NCBI GenBank assembly: GCA_024275095.1
Contig: JAJRZV010000063.1
Span: 1-13,738, forward strand
DNA from: a bacterium
GTDB lineage: Bacteria; JAJRZV01
Length of the DNA: 13,738 nt
Direction: 5' to 3'
Shown here piece after piece: positions 230 through 13,738 of this stretch. Each line of letters opens with the position of its first letter. The first letter of the stretch is position 1. The translations under genes and the position numbers were made by a program. Below the pieces are notes generated by a model, which was not told where the DNA came from, searched no databases, and was given only the letters and a program-made list of their open reading frames with translations.

Positions 230-235
230 GTGCTG

Positions 236-469
236 ATGAAAGGTAAAGCTCGCTCGCAGGAGAGCACTCTCAAGGAATTGCTCCTGGATGAAGAAGGCCA
301 GGGAATGACAGAGTACATTATTATCCTTCTCCTCATTGCCGTGGCGATGATAGCGGGATGGAAACTGTTCGGAAAAAAACTCGCCCGCCTTCTTGGTTTT
401 GCAGTGGAGCAAATCGGCGGAGTTGAAGACGGCGTGAATGACATTCAGGGAGAATTCTCGGGCGAATAA
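236..469 (+). CDS. flp: Flp-family type IVb major pilin candidate
   Basis: This 77-residue prepilin should be cleaved by the Tad prepilin peptidase and polymerised into the adhesive Flp pilus. The leader is about 21 residues, longer than in many Flp pilins, and ends in DEEG. The cleavage context is G21 followed by Gln-Gly-Met-Thr-Glu-Tyr, which places Glu at mature position +5 and Tyr at +6, the hallmark of Flp pilins. A hydrophobic helix follows at residues 28-43, then an amphipathic and acidic tail. Mature length would be about 56 residues, normal for the family. It is the first gene of the operon and has the strongest ribosome site, as expected for the major subunit. The ATG at 236 was chosen over the GTG at 230 from Shine-Dalgarno spacing. 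The family call is secure. Its role as the main pilin rather than a minor one is inferred from position. Confidence 0.9.
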   Translation: MKGKARSQESTLKELLLDEEGQGMTEYIIILLLIAVAMIAGWKLFGKKLARLLGFAVEQIGGVEDGVNDIQGEFSGE

Positions 470-489: not shown

Positions 490-1392
490 ATGAGATCACG
501 CGGTGCGGTATATGTTGAGGCTCTGGTGGTAATACCCTTGCTGGTAGTGTTCATCCTTGGTCTCGTTCAGCTTTCACTGCTGTGGCAGGTGAAACTCGGG
601 GCTCGCTATGCTGCTTACTGTGCAGCAAGGGCTGTCGCGGTTCACGGTGGCGGGAGAAGGTATGCACAGAGTGCCGCGCTTCTGGCATTGACACCTGTAA
701 TGCCGAGGATCAGCGGGGTGTTTGCAGATGCCGCAGCGGCTCCTTCCGTTATCCTCGATGCACTTCAGGCCCGCGTGCAGGAATACACCGGGATGATAGC
801 AGGGTATGCAGGCAGCGTGGCAAGGGGTGCTGTAAAAGAACTCGGCGAGTCCGTGTCGTCATCATTGAACGTACGCATTCCCATGCCGGATGGATATGAC
901 GTGAACGTCAATATCGCTCGTCTTCTGCCTCTTGATGCTGTGGAGAATTTTATCGCAGGTGTTGCGGGCGAACTCACGGGGGGAGCGTTATCGTTTTTTA
1001 CGGAAAGAATTTTCTCGTCGATGTCCTTGGCATCGGGGCCCGGAAGGCACTACTCCGTACCGCCTGCCGGAAGAACGAGCCGTGTGGTTGAGATCGCTGA
1101 AAGATACCTGACCGCTAAATATTTCACTGAAATACGCGTGCTCGATGAAACCGGTGGTGAAGTGACCGGGCAGGTATCTGCGGGAGAACTTGTCACCGTC
1201 GAGGTGATCGTGCATTATCCCCTTCCCGTGCCTGTGGTGCGCAGGCTCATGGGGAGTCCTCCCCGGAGATTGCCGGACAATCCCGTAGCTCGGATATTTG
1301 AAAGCACAGGCGCTGGTTACTTCAGCCGTGTGGTGGCCCGCTCGACCATGAGAATTGAAGGGATGAGAGAACGTGAAGGGAACCCGGGCTGA
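490..1392 (+). CDS. tadE: TadE-like pseudopilin, long variant
   Basis: This 300-residue membrane-anchored protein has a TadE-type N-terminus. A five-residue leader ends in Gly5, followed by Ala-Val-Tyr-Val-Glu, which places Glu at +5 as in prepilins cleaved by TadV/CpaA. A single hydrophobic helix spans about 11-32. It is followed by an alanine-rich stretch with AARAVAV near residue 45-51, typical of TadE proteins. The remainder, about 250 residues, is predicted to be extracytoplasmic. TadE proteins are usually nearer 150-200 residues, so this one has an enlarged middle region (about 90-175). TadE is a processed pseudopilin needed for Flp pilus assembly. The gene starts 20 bases after flp with GGAG seven bases before the ATG. 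It overlaps the next gene by 20 bases, which suggests translational coupling. The function is assigned from the N-terminus and the locus. The C-terminal domain is not recognised. Confidence 0.8.
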   Translation: MRSRGAVYVEALVVIPLLVVFILGLVQLSLLWQVKLGARYAAYCAARAVAVHGGGRRYAQSAALLALTPVMPRISGVFADAAAAPSVILDALQARVQEYTGMIAGYAGSVARGAVKELGESVSSSLNVRIPMPDGYDVNVNIARLLPLDAVENFIAGVAGELTGGALSFFTERIFSSMSLASGPGRHYSVPPAGRTSRVVEIAERYLTAKYFTEIRVLDETGGEVTGQVSAGELVTVEVIVHYPLPVPVVRRLMGSPPRRLPDNPVARIFESTGAGYFSRVVARSTMRIEGMREREGNPG

Positions 1393-3136
1393 AAGAAAAC
1401 TTTTGAATGATGAGAGCGGAGGAGCGCTCCTTCTGGTGCTCCTTGGTTGCCTGGCGGTGGTCACATTTCTCGCGGCGGTTTTCAACATGGGTGTCCAGGT
1501 GATGGTGAAGACGGGGCTCCAGGGAATAGCGGATGCGGCTGCACTGACAGGAACATCCTGGCTGGCTGCGGGGCTCAACACCCTGGCATTTATCAACTTT
1601 GCAATGATGACAATCGTGGCTCTTGTTGTTGCGCTGGCGCTTATCGGTGTGGCTCTGGGAGCCTGTTCTTCGCTGGTATTTGTGCCTGTGCTTCCGGCGG
1701 TATGTGCAGCGGCAATGGTCCCTTATTACCGCGTTGTTGTACCGGAAGTGGTTCCCAAGCTGTGGAAAGCCTCCATCGGCCTTCAGCGTACCGGTAATGT
1801 GTACATGAAACTGTTCCCCATTGTGGCAGCCGGAGACACATTCATAAAAGGAGTGCAGGAATCCGGCGACACGCGTAGGTGGAGGCCTTTTGTGGTTTTT
1901 TACCCGCTTCTACCGGGAACTGACAGTGATGATGGTTTTGAACGCCTGAGCCTTCACGTCGAAAAAGGGGCTTTTGAAGATTTTGCCAGAGAAGTGGAAA
2001 AGCAGGTGGGGAACGCCATAAATAAGCTGCTCGAAGGTACGGGGATTTTTGGTGGCCCAATGGCAAAGGCTGCTGGGTGGATCGGCGGCAAAGCCGCATC
2101 TCTTGCAACCAGCGGTGTAGGAAACGTGCTGGGCACGGTTCTATCAGATGGCGGAATTCAAAGTGAACATGGAGAAGAGAAGAATTTTGAAAGGGTGCTC
2201 AGATTCGACATTAATCCGTCACTTGTGTCTTCTGAGCGGGGATATTTTGATCCTCGACCTCCCCAAGAGTGTACCCAGGAAAAGTGCCGCCAGATACTTC
2301 ACATGCTCAAAAAGTGGGAGGAAGTGGCGAGATCGGGAGAGGTTTCAGCGACCATAGAGCCACTGCGTCATTATCGCTTTGTCTACCGCAGTGAGAGCGA
2401 AGGCATGCGTTTTACGCGCGTGGTGAACATCAGCTTGAGATGGCGGTATTACCACCTGGTGTGGAATGTGACCGACGAGGACGTGGACGGTGACGGACGT
2501 GTTCAGGGTGATGGGTGCCGCAGGAGATGGGCCGGGACCCGAAGTGGTGACACGGCAGGTTTCAGGCCCTTTCAGGCCATGCAAGAACGCCTGGTGGAGG
2601 TGATTCCAGAATGGCTGCATCGTGGTGAAAACCTGAGGGGTGCAGAAAATGCTTCATGTCGCAATCTGGATTACGAAGTCAAAGTCATCTGTGATGGTAC
2701 GGAATACGTTAAGGAACGTTTTGTGCTGAGAGACCTGGAGGCGAGGTATACCCAGTCATTCCAAGTGTCACCGCCGCCGGAGATGCCGGCACCGTTCGTA
2801 CTCCACGCTCACGCGTTCGAGAAGCTGCGTATGGCTGTGCTTGCCTGGGACAGGGGGCGTACACGCAGGCCGTATGTGCTGGAACACCTGATGGGAGATG
2901 GTGCACCTGCAGGCACGTTTGCCGTTGCCCAGGCCTGCGCGGCCAGCCCTTCTGCTGTTCCGGGAGAAGCGTTTTTCCACTGGGACTGGACGGAATTTTT
3001 GTGTCCTGTTTCCCTCGTAAGGGAACTTGCTCGGGCCTGGCGTTCTGCACCCCCAAACGGCGATATGGAGCCGGAAGAAGGCACAGCCGGTGACTCGTTG
3101 GAGGAGTGGATCAGTCGCCATGTGCTCGTACACTGA
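1373..3136 (+). CDS. tadG: TadG-like / Tad-domain pilus assembly protein
   Basis: This 587-residue protein begins with GTG inside the preceding gene. The N-terminus (DESGGALLLVLLG, residues 13-25) leads into a hydrophobic helix at about 17-40. Then comes a TadG-type segment, GIADAAALTGTSWLAAGLN (51-69), matching the usual Asn/Asp-Ala-Ala-Asp-Ala-Ala-Ala theme of this family. Unlike its TadE-like neighbours it has no Glu at +5 after the leader glycine, so prepilin-type cleavage is doubtful. A second hydrophobic region covers about 74-118. The remaining 460 or so residues should be extracytoplasmic and include a DxDxDG acidic loop at 368-373, possibly calcium binding. Several cysteines (300, 305, 382 and others) could form disulfides. 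Tad-domain proteins sit in the envelope and are needed for pilus assembly or anchoring. The gene overlaps the TadE-like genes on both sides. Confidence 0.75.
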   Translation: MKGTRAERKLLNDESGGALLLVLLGCLAVVTFLAAVFNMGVQVMVKTGLQGIADAAALTGTSWLAAGLNTLAFINFAMMTIVALVVALALIGVALGACSSLVFVPVLPAVCAAAMVPYYRVVVPEVVPKLWKASIGLQRTGNVYMKLFPIVAAGDTFIKGVQESGDTRRWRPFVVFYPLLPGTDSDDGFERLSLHVEKGAFEDFAREVEKQVGNAINKLLEGTGIFGGPMAKAAGWIGGKAASLATSGVGNVLGTVLSDGGIQSEHGEEKNFERVLRFDINPSLVSSERGYFDPRPPQECTQEKCRQILHMLKKWEEVARSGEVSATIEPLRHYRFVYRSESEGMRFTRVVNISLRWRYYHLVWNVTDEDVDGDGRVQGDGCRRRWAGTRSGDTAGFRPFQAMQERLVEVIPEWLHRGENLRGAENASCRNLDYEVKVICDGTEYVKERFVLRDLEARYTQSFQVSPPPEMPAPFVLHAHAFEKLRMAVLAWDRGRTRRPYVLEHLMGDGAPAGTFAVAQACAASPSAVPGEAFFHWDWTEFLCPVSLVRELARAWRSAPPNGDMEPEEGTAGDSLEEWISRHVLVH

Positions 3137-3845
3137 GGATAAAGGCGTGATTTACACAGAGGCACTTATCACCCTGCCTGTGCTGGTGTTGCTCTTGTAT
3201 GCCGTAATTTACGTTCCCCGGGTTCATTACGCAGGTATAAAGCTTCAGGAGGCTTTGCGTTTTTACCTTCTGGAGGCGGGTAGAAACGTCATTTCGAATG
3301 ATGGTGATGCTGAGAAGTATTTTGAGGATTTTAACGAGGAGTGGCGTTTCAGCACCACCATTTCACACGAAGGGTCATCCGGATTAGGTGAAGAGTTCGC
3401 TTCGGGTGATGGTTTCGCAGGTGCCATCGGAGATGTACTGGATTTTATCCTGGGTTCACGACGCGTGAATGTAAGTGTGACAACAGGGGTGATTGTGCCC
3501 CTGGGAATAAGGGTGAGTTTAAGCGGTATCCTGAAGGCACATCTCGACCCATTTCACGGGTCCGTAAGGGCATGGGTGCCGCGGAGCGTTTCAACACTTT
3601 ACGCGCTGGGTTACGCTCTTGCCGGAAGTTCTGAACAGGGATTGTCACAGCACATCATTCGCAATTCTCTCGGTTCTTATGTCCAGAAGGGAGAAACCGC
3701 GGCTGAAAGGGCAGGGCGGCGCCTGGGCCTGCCTGCGCCTGCAGGGGATGCAGAGAGAAGCCGGGGGCTTGTTGACGAAGAAGATGTTTTGGGTGCTTTT
3801 GCTTCTGAATGTGCGCCTCAACACTTTCCAGGAAGTGAGCGATGA
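3120..3845 (+). CDS. tadE: Second TadE-like pseudopilin
   Basis: This 241-residue protein has a short leader (residues 1-9, ending Lys-Gly) followed by Val-Ile-Tyr-Thr-Glu, again placing Glu at +5 from a glycine cleavage site. A hydrophobic helix follows at about 15-33. Residues after 40 are soluble, with an acidic stretch at 60-75 and a basic, proline-containing C-terminus. It therefore looks like a TadE-type pseudopilin. The reading frame is open further upstream to 3027, but that part lies wholly inside tadG and would bury the leader. A GTG at 3147 would remove the cleavage glycine. The ATG at 3120 is therefore preferred, although the nearest strong Shine-Dalgarno (3100-3106) sits rather far away at 13 bases. 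The gene overlaps tadG by 17 bases and the next gene by an ATGA. Confidence 0.75.
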   Translation: MCSYTEDKGVIYTEALITLPVLVLLLYAVIYVPRVHYAGIKLQEALRFYLLEAGRNVISNDGDAEKYFEDFNEEWRFSTTISHEGSSGLGEEFASGDGFAGAIGDVLDFILGSRRVNVSVTTGVIVPLGIRVSLSGILKAHLDPFHGSVRAWVPRSVSTLYALGYALAGSSEQGLSQHIIRNSLGSYVQKGETAAERAGRRLGLPAPAGDAERSRGLVDEEDVLGAFASECAPQHFPGSER

Positions 3846-4507
3846 AAGTGTTTCTATCCAGAATTCTGGGTGTTGCCGCAGGCATCGTGGCGATTTCCCT
3901 GGCAGGTTCCAGGTGGGCCGGAGGCACGGTTGCGTGGTACGGTGAACCTGCCGGTAAGGTTACAGATGTAAGAAGGGTTACAGCATACCTGAATCGTACT
4001 CCAGTAAAGATCATAACCGCTACCTATTACGGCAGGCCCGTTGACGCCCTTCGGCTGATTATGGGCCCCGGCGCGCGTATCGGAGGTTCGGCAGATGTGG
4101 CCGTTGGTACGGACGTGGACCTGTACAGGCTTCTTGCAGGGGAATTGTTCTCGCTGGGCATAGGCATGGCATTTCGGGGCTACGGGGAGCGAACGGAGCT
4201 GTTTCTCGTGCGCGCGGAGAATCTGGACGGCAACGCCTTTGCAAAAATGCTTCAGACCCAAACAGCGCCGCCTGAAATGCCGAACTGCGGCAGCAAGGGT
4301 TTTTTACTGGAGGCTAACGATGCACGCGTATTTGTGGAAGTGAACGGCCTTTCTCCCGGTTTGCTCCTGGGACGCGCGAGCAGGTCTCTCGAATTTCAGG
4401 GCTATATGTCGGTGAGTTCATTTGCATACGTGAAGACAGACGGCAGGTGCATTTTTTCCATAACTGAGGTGAAGGGTGAGAGTGTTTGCGTATCTGCGTG
4501 CCTGTGA
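3842..4507 (+). CDS. Exported protein of unknown function in the pilin block
   Basis: I do not recognise this 221-residue protein. It begins with a clear export signal: basic residues at 2 and 7, then a hydrophobic core from about 8 to 21. Cleavage near 21-28 is possible. The rest is a soluble mix of predicted strands and helices without obvious repeats. Four cysteines lie in the mature part (149, 203, 216, 220), three of them in the last 19 residues, so a disulfide-stabilised C-terminus in the periplasm is plausible. It sits between a TadE-like pseudopilin and a small Flp-like pilin, and is joined to the former by an ATGA overlap. A role in pilin maturation, folding or assembly is therefore a reasonable guess from position only. 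Its 3' end overlaps the next small gene by 32 bases. Confidence 0.7.
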   Translation: MKVFLSRILGVAAGIVAISLAGSRWAGGTVAWYGEPAGKVTDVRRVTAYLNRTPVKIITATYYGRPVDALRLIMGPGARIGGSADVAVGTDVDLYRLLAGELFSLGIGMAFRGYGERTELFLVRAENLDGNAFAKMLQTQTAPPEMPNCGSKGFLLEANDARVFVEVNGLSPGLLLGRASRSLEFQGYMSVSSFAYVKTDGRCIFSITEVKGESVCVSACL

Positions 4508-4662: not shown

Positions 4663-5169
4663 GTGAAATTTCAATATGCCTTTTTTGTAAACGTGTTTTT
4701 CACAGGATCCCTGCTGGCAGCGGGTGTGATGGATTTTGCAACGGGTAGAGTTCCCAACCTTATTGTACTGCCAGCATCTGCGCTGGCTCTCCTGTGGCAC
4801 GTGGCAGGCGAAGGATTGTCCGGGCTTGTACTTGCAGTAAAAAGTGGAGTTGTTGCTGCTGCACCTCTGTACCTGCTTTTTCGTCTGCGTGCCATGGGAG
4901 GTGGTGATGTGAAGCTCATGTTCTTTGTAGGTGCATGGCTGGGTATGGTTGCCGCGTTCAAGGTGCTGTTTCTTGCCCTCCTGTTCGGAGCCCTGGCAGG
5001 CGTTGTGGAGATGGTGGCACGGGGGCAGATGCGTACGTGGTTGAAAAAGATGATGGGACGGCCCCTGCACGAGCCTTACCGTCCGGTATTTGTGCCGTTT
5101 GCAGGGGCCATAGCGGCGGCGGGTCTCTACATCGTTCTGCTTACCTCTCCCGGAGGAATTTTTAGATGA
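4663..5169 (+). CDS. cpaA: Prepilin peptidase CpaA/TadV (A24 family)
   Basis: This 168-residue inner-membrane aspartic protease should remove leaders from the Flp pilins and TadE-like pseudopilins encoded just upstream. Both catalytic aspartates are visible: D24 in VMDFATGRVPN (22-32) and D82 in GGGDVKL (79-85), matching the GxGDxKL motif of A24 peptidases. Several hydrophobic helices cover roughly 7-23, 31-47, 52-73, 85-118 and 143-160. The N-terminal methylase domain of PilD-type enzymes is absent and the length is normal for the minimal TadV/CpaA form. Translation starts at GTG with a good ribosome site, and the gene ends in an ATGA overlap with cpaB. It is a standard member of the family. 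Confidence 0.95.
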   Translation: MKFQYAFFVNVFFTGSLLAAGVMDFATGRVPNLIVLPASALALLWHVAGEGLSGLVLAVKSGVVAAAPLYLLFRLRAMGGGDVKLMFFVGAWLGMVAAFKVLFLALLFGALAGVVEMVARGQMRTWLKKMMGRPLHEPYRPVFVPFAGAIAAAGLYIVLLTSPGGIFR

Positions 5170-5936
5170 AGTTCGACAGGAAGACTGTATTTGTCGTGGC
5201 TGTCGCCTCTGCCGTTCTGGCGGCTCTGCTCACTGTCCACTATATCCAGGGAGTAAAAAAACAGCTCATGAAAGGACTCGAACCCGTGAAGGCACTTGTT
5301 GCACGTCAGGACATGCGAGCTGGCGAGGTGGTGGAAGAGGAGGGTTTCGTCGTGCGCCTTTTCCCAAAACGGTATCTCCATCCCGCGGCCCTGAAACCAG
5401 GAGACCTGCCACTGGTTGTGGGGCAACGACTGAGAAACCCGGTGTTCAAGGGTCACCCGGTTCTATGGAGCGACCTGGGGGCCGGTGAGAGCAACAGTCG
5501 TGTTTCCGAAGGTCTCATGGAGAGCGAACGAGCAGTGTCTGTGGCGGTGGATGGTGTATCCGGTGTTTCCGGGCTCATTCAGCCAGGTGACCACGTTGAC
5601 ATTTTGTGGACGTACTCGGGGGTTCTTCCGGATGGACGGGCCGGCACTCTTGTAACGAGCCTCCTCCAGAATGTGACGGTTCTTGCTGCAGGTGGGCGTA
5701 CTGTCCCGGGGCACGGCGGTTACTCGACGGTGACCCTGGCCCTGACCCTGAGGGAGGCGGAGATTGTTACGTTTGCCCAGCAAAAAGGAAAAATCACCCT
5801 TGTTCTACGCAACCGCAGGGACGTGTCAGTGCTGGATGACCAGAAGGTATTGCACATGCAGGAACTGCTTGGAAGGGAGATGAAGAGAATCCAGAAGGCA
5901 AGAACCCTGAGAATTATCAGGGGTAAACAGCAATGA
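5166..5936 (+). CDS. cpaB: Flp pilus assembly protein CpaB/RcpC
   Basis: This 256-residue periplasmic protein is anchored by one N-terminal helix (about 7-27). A SAF-like domain covers roughly 42-105, including ARQDMRAGEVVEEEGF. The RcpC/CpaB domain covers about 118-216, with the typical stretch VAVDGVSGVSGLIQPGDHVD (127-143 region) and a later LTLREAEIVTFAQQKGKI (193-210). CpaB/RcpC is known as a periplasmic partner of the Tad secretin and may contact the outer membrane or peptidoglycan. The C-terminal 40 residues are basic and probably helical. The gene is joined by ATGA overlaps to cpaA before it and the secretin after it, the usual order in Tad loci. The length is close to the usual family size. 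Confidence 0.93.
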   Translation: MKFDRKTVFVVAVASAVLAALLTVHYIQGVKKQLMKGLEPVKALVARQDMRAGEVVEEEGFVVRLFPKRYLHPAALKPGDLPLVVGQRLRNPVFKGHPVLWSDLGAGESNSRVSEGLMESERAVSVAVDGVSGVSGLIQPGDHVDILWTYSGVLPDGRAGTLVTSLLQNVTVLAAGGRTVPGHGGYSTVTLALTLREAEIVTFAQQKGKITLVLRNRRDVSVLDDQKVLHMQELLGREMKRIQKARTLRIIRGKQQ

Positions 5937-7177
5937 AAAGTTTCTGTATTGCCGTCGCTGCTTTTGTCATTGGTGTACTACTGGTGCGGGTGAAGTTGCT
6001 TGCCGCTGAGTTCATCAATCTGGTAGTGGGACAATCCCACGTGTTGAAAGTGGCCGGTGCTTCTTCCGTGGCTGTGGGGGACAGTACAGTGGTCGGTGTA
6101 AAAGTTCTTCCCGGCGGGAACGAGGTAATGCTCACGGGCCTCCAGAGCGGCACCACCAATTTTATTGTCATGGGAGAGGGTGGACTCAGAAAGGAATATA
6201 CCGTGCGTGTGCTGGCCACTGATCCCAGGGCACTGGCAGATGCCGTGCGTGAAGCCCTGGAGGGTGTGGAAGGAGTGAAGGTGCGCGTTGCAGGAGCGAA
6301 TGTCATTCTGGAAGGTGAAATACTTCGCAAGGCTGACCAAGAACTGCTTGACAGGGTTCTCGCTGCTTTCCCGGGTGTCATTTCCTTTGTAAAAGGCAGG
6401 CGCGTGTTGCCTGAACTCATGGTTCAGATAGACGTGAAGGCAGTAGAAATTTCCAGCACATCGTTGAAGGAATTTGGCTTTTCGTGGCCATCAGTGTTCG
6501 GAGGTGAAGGAAGTGCCACCTGGACGATGAGACCCGGTGAAGCAACTGGTGGCACCGGCTTCTCCCTGTCCGTCGTGTCCTACCTTACGGCAGCCCTCCG
6601 TCTGCTTTCGGATGCGGGGAAGGTAAGGGTTCTGTCCAATCCCGTGCTCGTTACGCGTAACGGAGAAAAGGCGCGTTTCCTTGCCGGTGGTGAGGTGCCT
6701 GTTCCTGCGGCAGGCTCCCTTGGACAGGTGGATATAGAATTCCGCGAGTTTGGTGTGCTGCTGGAGTTTCGCGCCAGAGCTGATACGTACGGCAATGTTT
6801 CGCTCGACGTGCATGTATCCGTGAGCGACCTGGACTATTCTCGCGCAGTACAGGCGGGAGGGTTTGCTGTTCCTGCCATTCGCAAGAGGGAAACGGAGAG
6901 CCGTGTGAACCTGCACGAGGGAGAGTCACTGGCCATTGCAGAGCTTTTCACTGAGTCGCAGCGTAAAAACGTGAGCAAGCTTCCGTTCCTGGGGGATATC
7001 CCCATACTCGGCGAGCTCTTTAAGAAGCGTTCATTTCAGAATGGACACACCCGCTTCATGATGTTCATTACCCCGGCTGTGTTGCGTCCGGGCAGGCTGC
7101 CTGCGGACAGAATTCGACGAATATTAAAAGTTTACGAAAAATGGAGGAGCGAGGTCAGTGCAGGATTGCTTGACTGA
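5933..7177 (+). CDS. cpaC: Tad secretin CpaC/RcpA
   Basis: This 414-residue outer-membrane secretin should form the channel through which the Flp pilus leaves the cell. In order it has a signal peptide (1-25, with a hydrophobic core and AAEF at the end), a pilus-type N-terminal domain (about 26-95), a BON-like periplasmic domain (about 97-155), and the secretin domain from about 160. Secretin hallmarks include LMVQIDVKAVEI (162-173), NPVLVTRNGEKARFLAGGEVP (from 236) and KLPFLGDIPILGELFKKRSF (349-368). It has no lipobox cysteine after the signal, so a separate pilotin may be needed. None is obvious in the window. It starts in an ATGA overlap with cpaB and overlaps the ATPase gene by 20 bases. 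The family call is secure, and the length is at the shorter end for CpaC. Confidence 0.95.
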   Translation: MKSFCIAVAAFVIGVLLVRVKLLAAEFINLVVGQSHVLKVAGASSVAVGDSTVVGVKVLPGGNEVMLTGLQSGTTNFIVMGEGGLRKEYTVRVLATDPRALADAVREALEGVEGVKVRVAGANVILEGEILRKADQELLDRVLAAFPGVISFVKGRRVLPELMVQIDVKAVEISSTSLKEFGFSWPSVFGGEGSATWTMRPGEATGGTGFSLSVVSYLTAALRLLSDAGKVRVLSNPVLVTRNGEKARFLAGGEVPVPAAGSLGQVDIEFREFGVLLEFRARADTYGNVSLDVHVSVSDLDYSRAVQAGGFAVPAIRKRETESRVNLHEGESLAIAELFTESQRKNVSKLPFLGDIPILGELFKKRSFQNGHTRFMMFITPAVLRPGRLPADRIRRILKVYEKWRSEVSAGLLD

Positions 7178-8702
7178 ATATATCGAGGTGAGGGTGGGAA
7201 GTACCACGCACTGTATCACAGGACCTCAGTGCGTGCTGGGCCGTGATGCTTCCTCATGCGACGTGATTGTCGAGCATCCCACCGTATCCAGGAGACACGT
7301 GCGCATATGGCTGAAGGATGAACATCTGTTTATCCAGGACCTGGGATCAAGGAACGGAACGTTCGTCAACGGCGAACAGGTGAAAGGTGAATGCATGCTG
7401 GGCAGTAAAGGCACGTTCAGAATGGGAGATGTGGAGGTGACTGCTTGTTTGAAACGTGGTCGTTGTGATGCAGATGATACAGGCGTCCTGCCTGTACTCG
7501 TCGAAGCCGTGCGAAGGGAACTCCTGCAGAAAATAGATGTTTTCAGCGCAAGCGGCGAGGAAATTCAACATTACCTTGTGGATATACTGAAAAGTCACGG
7601 CTATGACCCGGGTGTGTATCTCCTTCCCGTAATGCGTGACGTGGTGGGTTACGGCCCCATCGAAGAATTTATTAATGACGAAAGCATCTCCGAGATCATG
7701 GTTAACGGTCCCGGTCAGGTGTACGTGGAACGCCATGGAAAACTGGAACTCACCCCTGTATTTTTTGCATCCGATGAAGAAGTCGTCCGGGTGATTGAAA
7801 GGATTGTTGCTCCCCTGGGACGCCGCATAGATGAATCGCAACCTTACGTGGATGCGCGGTTGCCCGACGGGAGCCGCGTGAATGCTGTGATTCCCCCTCT
7901 ATCCCTTATCGGTCCCGTACTGACCATTCGGAAGTTTTCCCGGCGGAAGCTTGGCATTAATGACCTCATTTCCTTCGGATCCCTTACCAGCAAAATGGCT
8001 GAGTTTTTGAGGCTCGCCGTGGAGTACCGTAAAAACATCGTGGTTTCGGGTGGGACTGGTTCAGGCAAAACCACGTTGCTTAACGTCATTGCATCTTTCA
8101 TACCCTCCGGCGAACGCATTGTCACCATCGAGGATGCGGCCGAACTGAGGCTTCCCCAGGAGCACGTGGTGCCGCTGGAAGCCCGGCCCCCGAATATTGA
8201 GGGACGCGGCGCGGTGACCATTCGTGACCTGGTGAGAAATTCACTGCGCATGAGACCCGATCGTATTGTCGTGGGTGAATGCCGGGGCGGTGAGGCACTG
8301 GATATGCTCCAGGCCATGAATACAGGCCACAGCGGTTCAATGACAACGCTGCATGCCAATTCTCCAAGGGATGCCATTTCGCGGCTCGCTACACTTGCCC
8401 TCATGGCAGGAATAGAACTGCCACTACGGGCAGTTTACGAATGGATTACCTCTGCCGTTGACATCGTCGTCCAGGTGGAGCGTTTCCGCGATGGTTCGCG
8501 CCGAATTACATCAATTGTGGAACTGGGGGGAATGGAGGGCGACGTTGTGGTGCTCAGGGAAATATTCCGCTTTGTGGTGGAAGGAGTGAAGGCGGAAAGG
8601 GTTACAGGGCGCTTTGTTGCCACCGGGGTGATTCCTGATTTTATCCACGAACTCAGGGAACGCGGTGTTCCTGTAGAACTGGACATTTTTGGAGGTGCTT
8701 GA
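7158..8702 (+). CDS. cpaF: FHA-domain / CpaF (TadA) pilus ATPase fusion
   Basis: This 514-residue cytoplasmic protein joins a phosphopeptide-binding FHA domain (about 8-97) to a full CpaF/TadA secretion ATPase (about 150-500). The FHA residues are intact: Gly28-Arg29, Ser44-Arg-Arg-His47, and Asn66-Gly67 followed by Asn71-Gly72. The ATPase has Walker A GGTGSGKTT (298-306), an Asp box around TIEDAAEL (323-330), Walker B/CpaF signature RIVVGECRGGEA (369-380), and a His box TGHSGSMTTLHANS (389-402). It should power pilus assembly by ATP hydrolysis at the inner membrane with TadB and TadC. The FHA domain normally binds phosphothreonine, so a Ser/Thr kinase may control it or recruit it; that is inference. 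The GTG at 7158 starts inside the secretin gene, with purine-rich GGAGGAGCGAGG just upstream. No TadZ/CpaE gene precedes it, where one is usual. Confidence 0.95.
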   Translation: MQDCLTEYIEVRVGSTTHCITGPQCVLGRDASSCDVIVEHPTVSRRHVRIWLKDEHLFIQDLGSRNGTFVNGEQVKGECMLGSKGTFRMGDVEVTACLKRGRCDADDTGVLPVLVEAVRRELLQKIDVFSASGEEIQHYLVDILKSHGYDPGVYLLPVMRDVVGYGPIEEFINDESISEIMVNGPGQVYVERHGKLELTPVFFASDEEVVRVIERIVAPLGRRIDESQPYVDARLPDGSRVNAVIPPLSLIGPVLTIRKFSRRKLGINDLISFGSLTSKMAEFLRLAVEYRKNIVVSGGTGSGKTTLLNVIASFIPSGERIVTIEDAAELRLPQEHVVPLEARPPNIEGRGAVTIRDLVRNSLRMRPDRIVVGECRGGEALDMLQAMNTGHSGSMTTLHANSPRDAISRLATLALMAGIELPLRAVYEWITSAVDIVVQVERFRDGSRRITSIVELGGMEGDVVVLREIFRFVVEGVKAERVTGRFVATGVIPDFIHELRERGVPVELDIFGGA

Positions 8703-9550
8703 TGAGCCTGGTACTGGCGGTGTTCGCCTGGGCGGTTGCCGGTGCAGCTGCCGCGATGTTTTCAGGAGATGCGTTGATTACTGTACTGGATGGGCGCCGC
8801 AGGAAGGTGGCGGACGAACTGGCGGAGGTGAAGAGAGCTGCACGGCCACCGGTGCACGAGGGTAATATTTTCTACCTGCAGGTGTTTTTCTCTGCTGCAG
8901 GGTTTGTCGTATTTTATCTGGCCACGGCGTCCATTCCCTTTTCTGTTATTTTCAGTTTCTCAGGAGCAATTCTTCCCATTATGTACGTGAGGTACTGGAA
9001 ACAGAAACGCATGGAGGCCCTGGAAAAGCAGATGCCGGAGGTGTTGCGTGCACTCGCCTCGGCCATGCGGGCCGGGAGAAGCTTTCAGCTTGCAGTTGAA
9101 TCCGTTTCCTCCGTCTTCGAGGAGCCGGCTCGAAGTGAACTCGCTCTTATCTCAATTCAAATGAAGCTCGGTGCTCATCCGGAAGAGGCTTTAAAAGAAG
9201 GGGCAAAACGTGCAGGCGGTGAGGACATGCTTCTTTTCGCTGCCGCAGTAGAGGCTGCTCGCAGGGCAGGGGGCAATCTTGCGGCCGTGATGGAGAAACT
9301 TGCCGGCACGGTGGAGGATCGTCTTCGCGTGAAGCTGAAGGTCAAAACCCTTGCTGCACAGGGACGTGCCCAGGGGTGGATCATGGGAATGTTGCCGGTG
9401 GGAATGCTCTGCATTCTTTATGTGCTGGACAGGAACATGCTGGCAGGCGTGTTTTCCCATCCGCTGGGTATTGCACTGATGGCGCTGGCCGGGATTTTTG
9501 AAGTTGCAGGAGTGGTGATCATGAGACGGATGCTGAAACTGGAGGTGTGA
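8702..9550 (+). CDS. tadB: Inner-membrane pilus assembly protein TadB
   Basis: This 282-residue polytopic protein of the GspF/T2SSF family works with TadC as the inner-membrane platform for the CpaF ATPase. Hydrophobic helices lie at about 2-20, 57-75, 80-97, 227-243 and 253-274. The T2SSF domain lies in the large cytoplasmic loop (about 107-235), with the typical MPEVLRALASAMRAGRSFQL (111-130) and later AARRAGGNLAAVMEKLAGTV (185-204). The ATG at 8702 is favoured over a TTG three bases earlier because GGAGGT at 8691-8696 sits five bases away. It overlaps the ATPase stop by one base and tadC by one base. Confidence 0.93.
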   Translation: MSLVLAVFAWAVAGAAAAMFSGDALITVLDGRRRKVADELAEVKRAARPPVHEGNIFYLQVFFSAAGFVVFYLATASIPFSVIFSFSGAILPIMYVRYWKQKRMEALEKQMPEVLRALASAMRAGRSFQLAVESVSSVFEEPARSELALISIQMKLGAHPEEALKEGAKRAGGEDMLLFAAAVEAARRAGGNLAAVMEKLAGTVEDRLRVKLKVKTLAAQGRAQGWIMGMLPVGMLCILYVLDRNMLAGVFSHPLGIALMALAGIFEVAGVVIMRRMLKLEV

Positions 9551-10398
9551 TGGTGATCGCTTTTATCGCGGCACTTGCGGGATTTTGTGCATTTGCAGCT
9601 GTGATGACTTCAGGGGACTTTTTAGCTTCTTTCAGTTCTGAAAAAAGAATGGAAGAAAGCGCAGGGTCCCCGGGTTTCCTTGGTGTTCTTGCGGGGGTAC
9701 TGGAGAGAGTTCAACCTGTCTGGCTCGAGAAAACAGTTGACAAGGTTGCAGAGAAATATTTTGAAGAAAAAGGATATGCATTGTTCACAAGTCCATACGG
9801 GTTGTTCATCAGGGGGGAGGTCCTGTTCCTGCTGGTGTTTACAGTGGCAGCCTTTACGGCTTCCTTAACTCTTGCAGTTTTTGCCGGAACCGCAGCCTTT
9901 TTTGTCCCGTTACTCGATGTGCGTTCCAGGCGAGTGGCGCTTGAAAGGGAAACCATGCGGCACTTCCCGTTTTTTCTCGACCTGGTGGGTGTATCCGTGG
10001 AGGCGGGAGTTGACTTTATGCTGGCGGTTGAGAGGGTATACCCCATTCTTCCCCCTGGCAGGGTTAAAGATGCTGCCGGCGAAATGGTTAAGACAGTAAG
10101 GCTCGGATCCACACGGCGGGAAGCCCTCAGTACCCTGGCCGAACAACTCCCGGTAAAAGAAGTTCGTGATTTTGTTTCTGCGACCGTTCAGGCGGACAGG
10201 ATGGGAAGTGGATTGTCAGGCGTTATCAGAACGTTTTCCAGAGAACTTCGCAGGAAGCGTTTTGCAGAAGCGGAGGAAAGGGCACAGGAAGTGCCGGTAA
10301 AGCTCATGCTCCCGTTGCTTTTCATATTTGTGTGCAACTTCATTGTAATAACAGCTCCTGTGATTGTACGTGCGCTTGGCGGGGGCGTGTTGCGATGA
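9550..10398 (+). CDS. tadC: Inner-membrane pilus assembly protein TadC
   Basis: This 282-residue GspF/T2SSF-family protein follows tadB directly, the conserved order. It has an N-terminal helix (about 2-20), a helix pair at 90-122, a cytoplasmic T2SSF segment (about 136-245) with RHFPFFLDLVGVSVEAGVDF (137-156), and C-terminal hydrophobic helix 251-275. The segment AEERAQEVPVKLMLPL (240-255) is typical of TadC C-termini. The start is slightly ambiguous: GGAGGT at 9541-9546 is three bases before the ATG at 9550 and six before an in-frame GTG at 9553. The ATG was chosen, and the difference is one residue. The stop forms an ATGA overlap with the next gene. Confidence 0.92.
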   Translation: MVIAFIAALAGFCAFAAVMTSGDFLASFSSEKRMEESAGSPGFLGVLAGVLERVQPVWLEKTVDKVAEKYFEEKGYALFTSPYGLFIRGEVLFLLVFTVAAFTASLTLAVFAGTAAFFVPLLDVRSRRVALERETMRHFPFFLDLVGVSVEAGVDFMLAVERVYPILPPGRVKDAAGEMVKTVRLGSTRREALSTLAEQLPVKEVRDFVSATVQADRMGSGLSGVIRTFSRELRRKRFAEAEERAQEVPVKLMLPLLFIFVCNFIVITAPVIVRALGGGVLR

Positions 10399-11471
10399 CC
10401 GTGGCAATGATGATTTTTGCGGTTATTCTCGCGGCATCGCAATTGCACGCGCCGGTGGTGTTATGGACAGGGGATGTTCCACCTCCACAGGTGAAAGATA
10501 TAAAGGTTATCCGAGGATCCGTTGTTGAAGCTGTTGATTGCAACGTGCGGAAAGCGGAAGAAGCTTTTGATAAGGGTCGTTCTCACTACGAATTTCTCGA
10601 AGTGGACAGAGCAGAAAAATACTTCCGACGCGTTGTGAGAATTACGAGCCGGATGCCACTGTGTTCAAGAGCACGTCGTTGGCTCGCACTTTCTCACCTT
10701 TACCTTTCGGTGTGCAGGCTTGTCGTCGGAAAAGATAAAAGCGCTGCCAATTACATGAAAAAAGCGGTGAAGGAGGGACTGTGGCAGGACCTCTCGGAGG
10801 TTGAGTTCCCTCCGCCTGTCACGCGCCTTCACCGCCGGGTTCTTTCGAAGGTTCCCATGTGCCCCTGGGAATTTGAGCATCCTTTTGGGAAAGAGATAGA
10901 AACCCATATCGACGCCGTGAGAGTGAAGGTGGGCCACAGAATTCCGTGTGGGAAGCACCTTGCAGAAGCCTTTGTGGATGGACTTGCTGTGACACGCGGA
11001 GATATTACCGTGGAAGAAAAGGGTTCCGTCAGCCTTCCCCTTGTTTTGACAGAAGGCGTTGCAAAAAAACTACTGGAGCAGGATCGTATCCAGGCCTGGT
11101 TTCACACGCAGCAACGGGTGAATAACACTGTGCTTGTGAGGATAACCACCTCTGATAGAGAGTATGAACGGTTAGGCAGTTTTGAGGATTTGAAGGGTGA
11201 ATTTGTTCGTGTGTTGAAGGGCAGTTCAGATGGACGGTCCAGTACCGAGAAGAAAATTCAGCTTTTGCCGCCTGCCGTTTCTGAAGGTGTGCATGAGCGT
11301 CGAGTGCCGCTTGTACCAGTGCCGCTGATTGCGGAGAAAAAACAGTGGTACAGAAATCCCTACATCTGGGGAGGAGACGCGGGGATTGTTGCCGTTGCAG
11401 CAGGTGTGTTTCTGGGTGTGAAAGTTTTTTCTGATGAAGGGAAAAGAGGCGTTTTCATCGTGACCTGGTAG
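10395..11471 (+). CDS. Exported TPR-like protein with C-terminal membrane helix
   Basis: This 358-residue protein has a signal peptide (1-19, ending QLHA). A TPR-like helical region spans about 50-150: EEAFDKGRSHYEFLEVDRAE (55-74), then RARRWLALSHLYL (92-104), then a further helix ending FPPPVTRLHRRVL (138-150). This layout resembles envelope proteins of myxobacteria and relatives in which a TPR segment ends in a proline motif before a PEGA-type beta domain. The mid-region (about 160-270), with GKHLAEAFVDGLAVTRGDIT, could be such a divergent domain. A single hydrophobic helix at 328-343 follows WYRNPYIW. It may play the part that TadD (a TPR pilotin-like lipoprotein) plays in other Tad loci, but it has no lipobox and that role is inferred. 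The frame is open back to 10332 inside tadC. The ATG at 10395 is preferred because it makes an ATGA overlap and exposes the signal peptide. Confidence 0.7.
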   Translation: MTVAMMIFAVILAASQLHAPVVLWTGDVPPPQVKDIKVIRGSVVEAVDCNVRKAEEAFDKGRSHYEFLEVDRAEKYFRRVVRITSRMPLCSRARRWLALSHLYLSVCRLVVGKDKSAANYMKKAVKEGLWQDLSEVEFPPPVTRLHRRVLSKVPMCPWEFEHPFGKEIETHIDAVRVKVGHRIPCGKHLAEAFVDGLAVTRGDITVEEKGSVSLPLVLTEGVAKKLLEQDRIQAWFHTQQRVNNTVLVRITTSDREYERLGSFEDLKGEFVRVLKGSSDGRSSTEKKIQLLPPAVSEGVHERRVPLVPVPLIAEKKQWYRNPYIWGGDAGIVAVAAGVFLGVKVFSDEGKRGVFIVTW

Positions 11472-11506
11472 CAGGTTAAGGCAAAACGCGGAAAGCGGAG
11501 GTTTTC

Positions 11507-12385
11507 ATGAGGTGCTTATTATTACTCACGGGACTTTTTTTACTTTTCCTGGAGGAGCCGGCCGTGGCTGTTGCTTCCACCGGTCAGCTCTTTCCCGGTA
11601 AGACCACCCTGTACTCCCGGCAGTACGTGATTGAAGGCGGAACCTTATACTGGACAAGTTCCGGCATGCAGCGGTCCAGGCACTATGTGCTTGAGGCAGG
11701 AACAGCCTCTCTCCTGGACCGCAGGAAGGCGGAAGTTTACTACGTGACTCCTTCACAGGTGATAGAGGGACTGGAAACGGAAGTTTCCATAGTGGGGAAC
11801 TACTTTTCTGATTATCCTTCCTCTCCTTCGGTGACTGTAGGAGACAGGCCTGTCGAGGCTGTCCGTGTGGTTTCACCCACGCTCGTCCGGTTCACGTTTC
11901 CCTCGCAAATTTCAGCTGGCCTGTACAGCGTGAGCGTGATTTATTCCGGACAGTACCGCGTAAGCATTACACGCGCAATAAAAGTGGTGCATCCTCCACC
12001 CGTTGTATCCCGCATTGTGCCCAGTACGTTTTATGCTTCGGCAGGTGCCGAGTTCCTCGCTTACGGCGAACACTTTCAGCAGGGGCTGACCGCGACAATC
12101 GATGGGAGCCCCGCGGAGGTTGCTGAGACAACGGCTGGTCGCATCAAGGTTCGCGTACCCCGGGGAATGCCTCCCGGTTACAAACGCTTTTCCGTTTTCA
12201 ATCCAGACGGGCAGTTCGTCACGGTGGCCAATGCCCTGAGGATCATTGGCTCTCCCCCTCCAAACACCAGTGCCCAGGGTTGCGGATGCACGCAGTCGGA
12301 TGCCGCTCCTTCCGCGGGAACAATTCCTTACGTCCTTGCTTTTTTGATTATTACAGTGTGGAGGTGCTCCTGTGGGAAAAAGTAA
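11507..12385 (+). CDS. IPT/TIG-domain surface protein with MYXO-CTERM-like anchor
   Basis: This 292-residue exported protein has a signal peptide (1-22, ending AVAVA). A 20-residue tandem repeat follows (35-54 and 55-74, core SR-x-YV-x-E-x-GT). Then come two Ig-like IPT/TIG modules, about 76-162 (VYYVTPSQVIEGLETEVSIV at the start) and 164-247 (VVSRIVPSTFYASAGAEF). IPT domains are common in secreted and cell-surface binding proteins. The C-terminus is Gly-Cys-Gly-Cys (258-261), a short spacer, a hydrophobic helix (271-285) and WRCSCGKK. This layout resembles the MYXO-CTERM sorting tail, a Cys-rich motif plus helix plus basic end that is thought to be processed to anchor proteins at the cell surface. 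The start has GGAGG (11497-11501) five bases before the ATG. Only 35 bases separate it from the previous gene. A role as surface partner or tip-associated factor of the pilus is inferred from the operon. Confidence 0.75.
   Translation: MRCLLLLTGLFLLFLEEPAVAVASTGQLFPGKTTLYSRQYVIEGGTLYWTSSGMQRSRHYVLEAGTASLLDRRKAEVYYVTPSQVIEGLETEVSIVGNYFSDYPSSPSVTVGDRPVEAVRVVSPTLVRFTFPSQISAGLYSVSVIYSGQYRVSITRAIKVVHPPPVVSRIVPSTFYASAGAEFLAYGEHFQQGLTATIDGSPAEVAETTAGRIKVRVPRGMPPGYKRFSVFNPDGQFVTVANALRIIGSPPPNTSAQGCGCTQSDAAPSAGTIPYVLAFLIITVWRCSCGKK
11609..11728 (+). repeat. Two-copy 20-codon tandem repeat in the IPT protein
   Basis: Residues 35-54 and 55-74 of the IPT protein align without gaps around S37-R38-x-Y40-V41-x-E43-x-G45-T46 and S57-R58-x-Y60-V61-x-E63-x-G65-T66. 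The nucleotide match is only partial, so the duplication is old or selected at the protein level. Confidence 0.6.
12278..12382 (+). other. MYXO-CTERM-like C-terminal sorting segment
   Basis: Codons 258-292 of the IPT protein encode Gly-Cys-Gly-Cys, a polar spacer, a 15-residue hydrophobic helix and a short Cys-containing basic tail. The order (Cys motif, helix, basic end) is that of MYXO-CTERM. The tail has only an arginine and two lysines plus two extra cysteines instead of the usual arginine run, so it is an atypical or divergent example. Confidence 0.6.
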
Positions 12386-12758
12386 GACCATCAGGCGGCG
12401 CAGGAGGAGGCACCGTCGCCTGACTGGTGAAGAGCTGAGACTTTCCCTGTCAGCCAGATGGCTGGCCGAACGTCACGCAAGGTGTTTCAAGCGGTTGATC
12501 GATGAAAGATGTGAAAGCCTCAAGGGAAAGGGTGCTGATGATGACGGACGGGAAAAACGGAAGAAAGAAGGGTTGCGGGAACAAGAGGATCTCCTCAGCA
12601 AGGCAACTGAAGAGAATCGGAGAATTGCAATCTGGGTGTATGGGTGGAGACTCTGCGAAGTACAAGGAAAGAAGGCGCTTCAGGCGGCTGAGCAACAGAC
12701 GCTTCGCATGTTTCGTGAAGGTGCGACTGCGCACAATCTCCAGAAGGAGGTCTTGTAA
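12372..12758 (+). CDS. Small arginine-rich protein of unknown function
   Basis: I do not recognise this 128-residue protein. Its N-terminus is extremely basic (nine arginines among residues 8-16), followed by strongly charged, predicted alpha-helical sequence: about 18-50, then a polar linker with DDD near 56-58, then 60-85 and 95-125. No signal peptide or membrane helix is visible, so it is probably cytoplasmic and may bind nucleic acid, phospholipid head groups or an acidic partner. It starts with GTG at 12372, six bases after GAGGT (12361-12365), overlapping the IPT gene by 14 bases. Its stop overlaps the next ATG by one base. This spacing and the ribosome site support it as a real gene despite low-complexity sequence. 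Its position between two genes for exported proteins hints at a shared pathway, but nothing in the sequence shows what it does. Confidence 0.65.
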   Translation: MGKSKTIRRRRRRHRRLTGEELRLSLSARWLAERHARCFKRLIDERCESLKGKGADDDGREKRKKEGLREQEDLLSKATEENRRIAIWVYGWRLCEVQGKKALQAAEQQTLRMFREGATAHNLQKEVL

Positions 12759-13738
12759 TGTTTGCAAAAAGGGAAGTCGAGAAAGTAGTATTTGCCCTGT
12801 TCACTGCTTGTGCACTTTTCGGATACGGATGCACAGGCAGTGATACCGGTGCATTGAAAGGTGAAAATCATCTTCCCCTTGCTGATGCAGGAGGTGATGC
12901 TTACGCGGTTCCCGGAGAAATTGTTTACCTTGACGGAAGCGGGTCCAGCGACCCCGACGGAGACGTTCTCGTTTATTCCTGGTCATTGAAGAGTGCCCCT
13001 GAGGGTGCGGATGTTCTTCTTGCGAACCGCTTTACAGCGTCCTTGCTTTTCAGGGGGGATACCCCGGGAACATACGCGCTTGAACTCGTGGTTTTCGACG
13101 GCACCGGCTACTCGGAGCCTGATACGGCGTATGTGCATGTGGTCTCGGATACGGTAAGGCCTGTGGCACTTGCCTGTGGCGTGCCGGGCCGAATCGGCGG
13201 TTACAGCGTTATTGACGGAAGCGCCTCGTGGGACCCCAGAGGATTGCCACTCGCCTATACATGGGAGCTGACCGGGGCATCTGCCGGGTGTGATGTTTCA
13301 GGAGTGAACCTGGACGCGGCGCTTCCGGTACAGTCTGTACCCGTGGGCTGTGGTGCCGGGGCCAGGTACTGGTTCTCATTGCGCGTGTACAACGGCGAGT
13401 ATGCATCGCTGCTTACACAGGTGGTTCTTGAGGTGCCGGATACGCCACCGGAGGGGAGGGTGCAGGAGCCTGCCTGGCCCATGTCATCGACGGCGGATGT
13501 TACGCTCGCGGCTGTGCCTTCCGACGCAGACGGTGACGTGGTAGCCTGCCACTGGGATGTCGTGGCCAGGCCCCCGGATGTGAGCGTAATGCCGCTTGCA
13601 TCTGCATCATGCAGCGAAACCTTTTCCGTCAGCACCAATGCACCGGGAGTGATGCCCTACGTGGTGTTCCGTGTGCGAATGAGCGACGGACGCGGTGGAA
13701 TGTTTGAGCACTTCGTAAGCGCGTGGGGTCAGGATTGG
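12758..13738 (+). CDS. PKD-repeat putative surface lipoprotein (partial, runs off the window)
   Basis: The frame is open from the ATG at 12758 to the right edge (327 codons) with no stop, so the gene is cut by the window. GAAGGAGGT (12743-12751) sits six bases before the ATG, and the start overlaps the previous stop (TAATG). The N-terminus has a charged start, a hydrophobic core (10-23) and GYGCTGSD. Cys25 is a plausible lipidation site, but the lipobox is weak: Gly-Tyr-Gly precedes the Cys instead of the usual Leu-x-Gly/Ala. Residues about 41-130 form a clear PKD domain, with LDGSGSSDPDGDVLVYSWSL (58-77) and a later LELVVFDG. At least two more divergent PKD-like modules follow, around 134-226 (VIDGSASWDP, YTWEL) and 227-327 (PSDADGDVVACHW). 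Paired cysteines occur in the later modules. PKD domains mediate extracellular protein or carbohydrate contacts. A surface or adhesin role with the pilus is inferred. Confidence 0.8.
   Translation, partial: MFAKREVEKVVFALFTACALFGYGCTGSDTGALKGENHLPLADAGGDAYAVPGEIVYLDGSGSSDPDGDVLVYSWSLKSAPEGADVLLANRFTASLLFRGDTPGTYALELVVFDGTGYSEPDTAYVHVVSDTVRPVALACGVPGRIGGYSVIDGSASWDPRGLPLAYTWELTGASAGCDVSGVNLDAALPVQSVPVGCGAGARYWFSLRVYNGEYASLLTQVVLEVPDTPPEGRVQEPAWPMSSTADVTLAAVPSDADGDVVACHWDVVARPPDVSVMPLASASCSETFSVSTNAPGVMPYVVFRVRMSDGRGGMFEHFVSAWGQDW

Follow-up and report, generated by a model that had tools for sequence, protein, structure and literature searches.

A Tad (type IVc) pilus operon with an FHA-fused CpaF that continues past tadC into genes for an exported TPR protein and putative surface Ig-like proteins

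In canonical Tad operons, the tadD gene lies directly after tadC, and a run of pilus genes that continues well beyond this point raises the question of what the additional genes encode and how they relate to the pilus machine. Such a run fills the window, that is, the whole stretch of DNA analysed here (13,738 nt), which constitutes the entire contig C25 of an assembly of 2.45 Mb in 136 contigs. It is a single long same-strand series in which four extra genes follow tadC, arranged as follows:

230..469, + strand: Flp-type pilin (PF04964 E=0.005, under cut-off; assigned by position and prepilin-like sequence)
490..1392, + strand: TadE-like minor pilin (PF07811 E=1.6e-6)
1373..3136, + strand: TadG-like protein (PF13400 E=2.7e-4, slightly under cut-off)
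3027..3845, + strand: second TadE-like protein (PF07811 E=0.002, under cut-off; true start probably ~3112)
3842..4507, + strand: 221-aa protein in which no domain was recognised; its gene separates cpaA from the second TadE-like gene
4663..5169, + strand: CpaA prepilin peptidase (PF01478 E=1e-15)
5166..5936, + strand: CpaB/RcpC (TIGR03177, 153.6 bits, above cut-off)
5933..7177, + strand: CpaC/RcpA secretin, 414 aa (PF00263 E=7e-37)
7158..8702, + strand: CpaF/TadA ATPase with N-terminal FHA domain (PF00437 E=2e-65; PF00498 E=7e-18)
8699..9550, + strand: TadB (PF00482)
9547..10398, + strand: TadC (PF00482)
10395..11471, + strand: exported TPR protein with C-terminal hydrophobic helix, 358 aa, in the slot of TadD in canonical operons
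11507..12385, + strand: protein of 292 aa with a signal peptide, two IPT/TIG domains and a tail of MYXO-CTERM-like type
12278..12382, + strand: tail of the IPT protein, GCGCTQSDAAPSAGTIPYVLAFLIITVWRCSCGKK (Cys motif, helix, basic end)
12372..12758, + strand: Arg-rich protein, 128 aa, no export signal
12758..13738, + strand: PKD-domain putative lipoprotein, its frame still open at the contig end

The core of a Tad (type IVc) system is present in this one locus, including CpaF/TadA, TadB, TadC, CpaB, CpaC, the prepilin peptidase and Flp (the last with a match under the Pfam cut-off), and the canonical order cpaA-cpaB-cpaC-cpaF-tadB-tadC put forward in the original prediction was borne out by domain matches along the window. 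CpaE/TadZ is frequent in Tad loci, though absent from some; within this locus, no cpaE/tadZ gene was found between cpaC and cpaF, and the start of cpaF falls inside the end of cpaC. At L071, a gene of similar size occupies the slot of the window's 221-aa gene (3842-4507).

From tadC onwards, consecutive genes are joined by a 4-bp overlap (TPR), a 35-bp gap (IPT), a 14-bp overlap (Arg-rich) and a 1-bp overlap (PKD), exactly the four genes and spacings that had been predicted. Shine-Dalgarno-like sites precede the IPT (GCGGAGG), Arg-rich (TGGAGGTG) and PKD (AAGGAGG) genes, and the start of the TPR gene displays a weak one only. A search of 9400-13738 revealed no sigma-70-like promoter, and the terminator-like sites in this interval were as frequent as in shuffled sequence, all of them inside genes and none in the 35-bp gap after the TPR gene. 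An internal promoter or terminator separating the tail genes from the pilus genes, a division named in the original prediction as evidence against it, was thus not found in the sequence scan. From this operon structure, we infer that the four genes would be co-transcribed with tadC.

The first of the extra genes shares with tadD the trait of encoding a TPR protein and adjoining tadC. TadD is the TPR protein of Tad systems and acts as pilotin of the secretin RcpA (PMC10499894). Compared with Tad/Flp systems such as P. aeruginosa RcpA-TadD and C. crescentus CpaO, the locus displays the same core gene set and order and an exported TPR protein right after tadC; however, the window protein has no lipobox (no Cys occurs within its first 48 residues), few TPRs and a C-terminal membrane helix, and its relatives carry a PEGA domain. 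Further, the operon runs on into IPT, Arg-rich and PKD genes, unlike the canonical one. Because of the missing lipobox, we did not file the protein as TadD. Another TadD criterion is a crescent of five TPRs to which the C-terminus of the secretin binds; the AlphaFold2 model of the window protein, built from the single sequence, was too poor (pLDDT 35) for comparison with this crescent, and a PDB search returned consensus TPR proteins only.

The TPR assignment, with a sub-threshold match (PF13432 E=0.0047) corresponding to one or two weak TPRs, is backed by homologues. The closest relative belongs to genome G032, from another phylum (E=2.4e-10), where it is encoded divergently right beside tadC; both proteins share SHLYL and EFPPxVxxLH blocks and a similar C-terminal helix. 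In the relatives from G032 and G178, a signal peptide is followed by a TPR block, a PEGA domain and, at the C-terminus, a hydrophobic helix rich in Trp, and a relative in G349 corresponds to the TPR part. The window protein resembles these in its TPR block, EFPPxVxxLH-type motif and C-terminal helix, all of which are kept, but a PEGA domain is not detectable in it. Judged by its sequence, then, the TPR gene is a member of a signal peptide–TPR–(PEGA)–C-terminal-helix family. In the stretches read, the G178 members lie away from tad genes, and membership in the family therefore does not imply a link to Tad; for the gene in the window, an ordinary Tad companion role fits. The extension had been described as lineage-specific as a whole, a description that fails for its first gene, since the closest relative of the family adjoins tadC in another phylum and genes for TPR proteins often follow tadC.

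The IPT protein carries two TIG/IPT stretches (E=1.2e-18) between its signal peptide and the tail, in which a GCGC motif, a helix and a basic end follow each other according to the tripartite MYXO-CTERM plan. In a MYXO-CTERM signal, a Cys motif, generically GCGC, precedes a helix and a basic end; in M. xanthus, such signals are cut by the myxosortase MrtX, and the type II system delivers the proteins to the surface (PMC11980579). With the thresholds applied here, the curated model TIGR03901 for MYXO-CTERM did not match the IPT tail, and its cut-off was not exceeded by any tail of the genome, for which reason we call the tail MYXO-CTERM-like; matches to this model at L037-L039 were at chance level and were discarded. 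A PDB search with the IPT protein returned no match, and its AlphaFold2 model, computed without an alignment, reached pLDDT 54, the second IPT domain alone being good.

Machinery of the corresponding type was identified elsewhere in the genome. A CPBP protease (L033 1171-1833) scored 102.1 bits against the myxosortase core model Mrt_core NF040914 (cut-off 100), and its EELYFR and HWSAN sequences match the EExxxR/HxxxN motifs; its scores against the MrtP (128 bits) and MrtC (123 bits) models stayed under the respective cut-offs, and that of MrtX was not passed either. The gene lies directly after mutS and is followed by a gene for an exported protein that is cut by the contig end. A type II secretin GspD is also present (571.7 bits, cut-off 351), as are two exported proteins with similar tails, namely a 935-aa Ig-like protein (L196 2397-5201) with a GCGCT tail ending in GCGCTAVPVPEKDAVAGWLVIVFFTAGMLWIMRRLESS, and a 584-aa TIG-domain protein (L193 2649-4400) with the tail GGGC...LRRRFR, ending in GGGCVMAGEGASVHPLYGLIFLLPGLTILALRRRFR. 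The genome contains 56 GCGC-coding sites, and short helix-bearing tails of long ORFs account for two of them, the window IPT protein and the L196 protein. The likeness to TraA-MrtX sorting in M. xanthus accordingly comprises the signal peptide, GCGC motif, helix, basic end, myxosortase-core protease and type II secretin, whereas the differences are a tail under the TIGR03901 threshold, three such tails rather than dozens, and a protease that is no MrtX equivalog.

The original prediction had read the Cys-Gly-Cys motif as an anchor. Motif and helix are real, but a plain anchor is less likely than a sorting signal, given the candidate protease in the genome. That the Cys-helix-basic tail is an unprocessed membrane anchor, with the protein remaining in the inner membrane, is in our view unlikely: its position under the TIGR03901 threshold and an end (RCSCGKK) less arginine-rich than typical would agree with such an anchor, whereas the exact GCGC motif, the second protein with a GCGCT tail and the myxosortase-family protease speak against it. 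Since the genome holds this protease, a type II secretin and two similar-tailed exported proteins, the Cys-Gly-Cys motif most likely represents a processed surface-sorting signal.

As regards the two remaining genes, the Arg-rich protein contains 34 K/R and 20 D/E in its 128 aa, and displayed no domain or family match, no export signal and no convincing relative in 386 genomes; two weak matches (E ~1e-4 to 1e-3) lie inside much longer open frames and were set aside as probably compositional. Its codon usage is equivocal. The ORF is nonetheless probably a real gene, because in Markov sequence a frame would stay open over 128 codons with a probability of ~0.7%, and good ribosome-binding sites flank it. 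The PKD protein matches PKD domains (E=6e-16 / 8e-12) and carries a PROSITE-type lipobox, FGYGC; its best NCBIfam match was the PKD part of myxosortase-dependent M36 peptidases, far under the model cut-off, and a PDB search pointed to the PKD domains of KIAA0319-like proteins and collagenase. The domain calls made beforehand were therefore confirmed for the two IPT domains and for the PKD domain with its lipobox, as well as for the TPR with the sub-threshold, homologue-backed match given above, and the Arg-rich protein is without a domain.

The FHA domain fused to CpaF, found at 7 of 56 CpaF loci, calls for a comparison with the Kil system of Myxococcus, a Tad-like apparatus for contact-dependent killing. 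In the available part of its description, the FHA-fused CpaF appears as a hallmark of Kil, TadG is absent and the genes form two clusters (PMC8460266). The likeness to the window consists of this fusion and the Tad core; the window differs in being a single operon with TadE- and TadG-like genes, and in its IPT and PKD proteins, which that part of PMC8460266 does not describe for Kil. An apparatus working like Kil, through contact and killing, with the extra genes as contact or prey-recognition parts, would agree with the FHA-CpaF fusion, the short secretin, and the myxobacterial-type surface sorting and T4a-pilus secretin PilQ present in the genome. We nevertheless regard it as very unlikely: TadG-like and TadE-like genes are present in one unsplit operon, at odds with the gene content and two clusters of Kil, and a CpaF tree, built without named Kil sequences, left the window unplaced and required ~4 changes for the FHA fusion, so that the fusion is not a clean marker. 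Near an apparent pilMNOPQ run (recognised by eye, PilQ alone being confirmed by search), a small Roadblock-like protein is encoded at L200 10975-11328.

The gene content downstream of tadC was compared among relatives of the source assembly from the same domain, none of them from its phylum. TadC-like matches at <=1e-15 occurred in 86 of 386 genomes, the window's own included, and a TadC scan of genome contigs returned two Kiritimatiellae loci only. At 51 loci, the three positions following tadC held 119 scanned genes, of which at least 18 carry TPR_2 and 22 carry FHA. DUF192 was the commonest tadC neighbour across phyla (23 of the 119), being encoded directly after tadC, for instance, at L061 10711-11070, L074 9391-9753 and L092. 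IPT and PKD were not among the 25 commonest families in this set. Furthermore, no IPT, Arg-rich or PKD genes of the window type were found downstream of tadC at ~75 other Tad loci from other phyla; the IPT matches in 18 other genomes were to generic IPT domains, on other contigs or ~220 kb from tadC, with none adjoining a TadC match. The pairing of a Tad operon with a MYXO-CTERM-like Ig-like protein was unseen at any other Tad locus examined.

Such a distribution also bears on the possibility that the TPR gene alone is functionally Tad, with the three genes after it (IPT, Arg-rich and PKD) forming an unrelated cassette of surface proteins that shares the operon by chance. Genes downstream of tadC vary widely between phyla, with DUF192, FHA and TPR dominating and IPT and PKD outside the top 25, and the other proteins of this genome with IPT-type tails are encoded away from tad genes in the stretches read. 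Conversely, the 14- and 1-bp overlaps and strong ribosome-binding sites join the IPT, Arg-rich and PKD genes to each other, and the gap to the TPR gene is just 35 bp and holds no terminator, so that we consider a chance association somewhat unlikely. Functional coupling of the three-gene extension to the pilus is what we infer from operon structure only.

The reading that we prefer, with modest confidence, is that of an FHA-CpaF-type Tad (type IVc) operon in which the genes past tadC add a TPR component of the cell envelope and Ig-like surface proteins that would be co-expressed with the pilus. The TPR protein would replace the tadD product, being Sec-exported and held by its C-terminal membrane helix, probably as a periplasmic scaffold aiding assembly or positioning of the pilus machine. 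The IPT protein would be exported by Sec and retained in the inner membrane through its C-terminal helix; following the MrtX/TraA model of M. xanthus, a lipid may then be attached at its Cys motif, the myxosortase-like protease may cleave it, and the type II system would be a plausible route for its transfer to the outer surface. The PKD protein probably represents another lipoprotein of the surface. If expressed together, these Ig-like proteins would be displayed on the cell at the same time as the pilus, and adhesion or contact would be the simplest purpose. Of the predicted outer-surface or adhesin accessory, the surface part agrees with the surface-type signals that three products out of four carry, namely TPR (signal peptide and C-terminal helix), IPT (signal peptide and MYXO-CTERM-like tail) and PKD (lipobox-type N-terminus); an adhesin role of the tail genes, drawn from domain type alone, is plausible.

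A broader proposal, rather unlikely as it stands and offered as tentative, is that the Tad operon encodes Ig-like surface proteins of its own that are processed by a myxosortase; pilus and sorted adhesins would then be expressed together as a single module for attachment or contact, in a phylum that has been little sampled. If true, it would connect Tad pili with surface sorting by myxosortases, two systems that have been studied separately, in this little-sampled lineage, and would provide a concrete substrate-protease pair and operon. The TPR protein, for its part, would represent a second type of TPR protein in the tadD slot, membrane-anchored and not lipidated.
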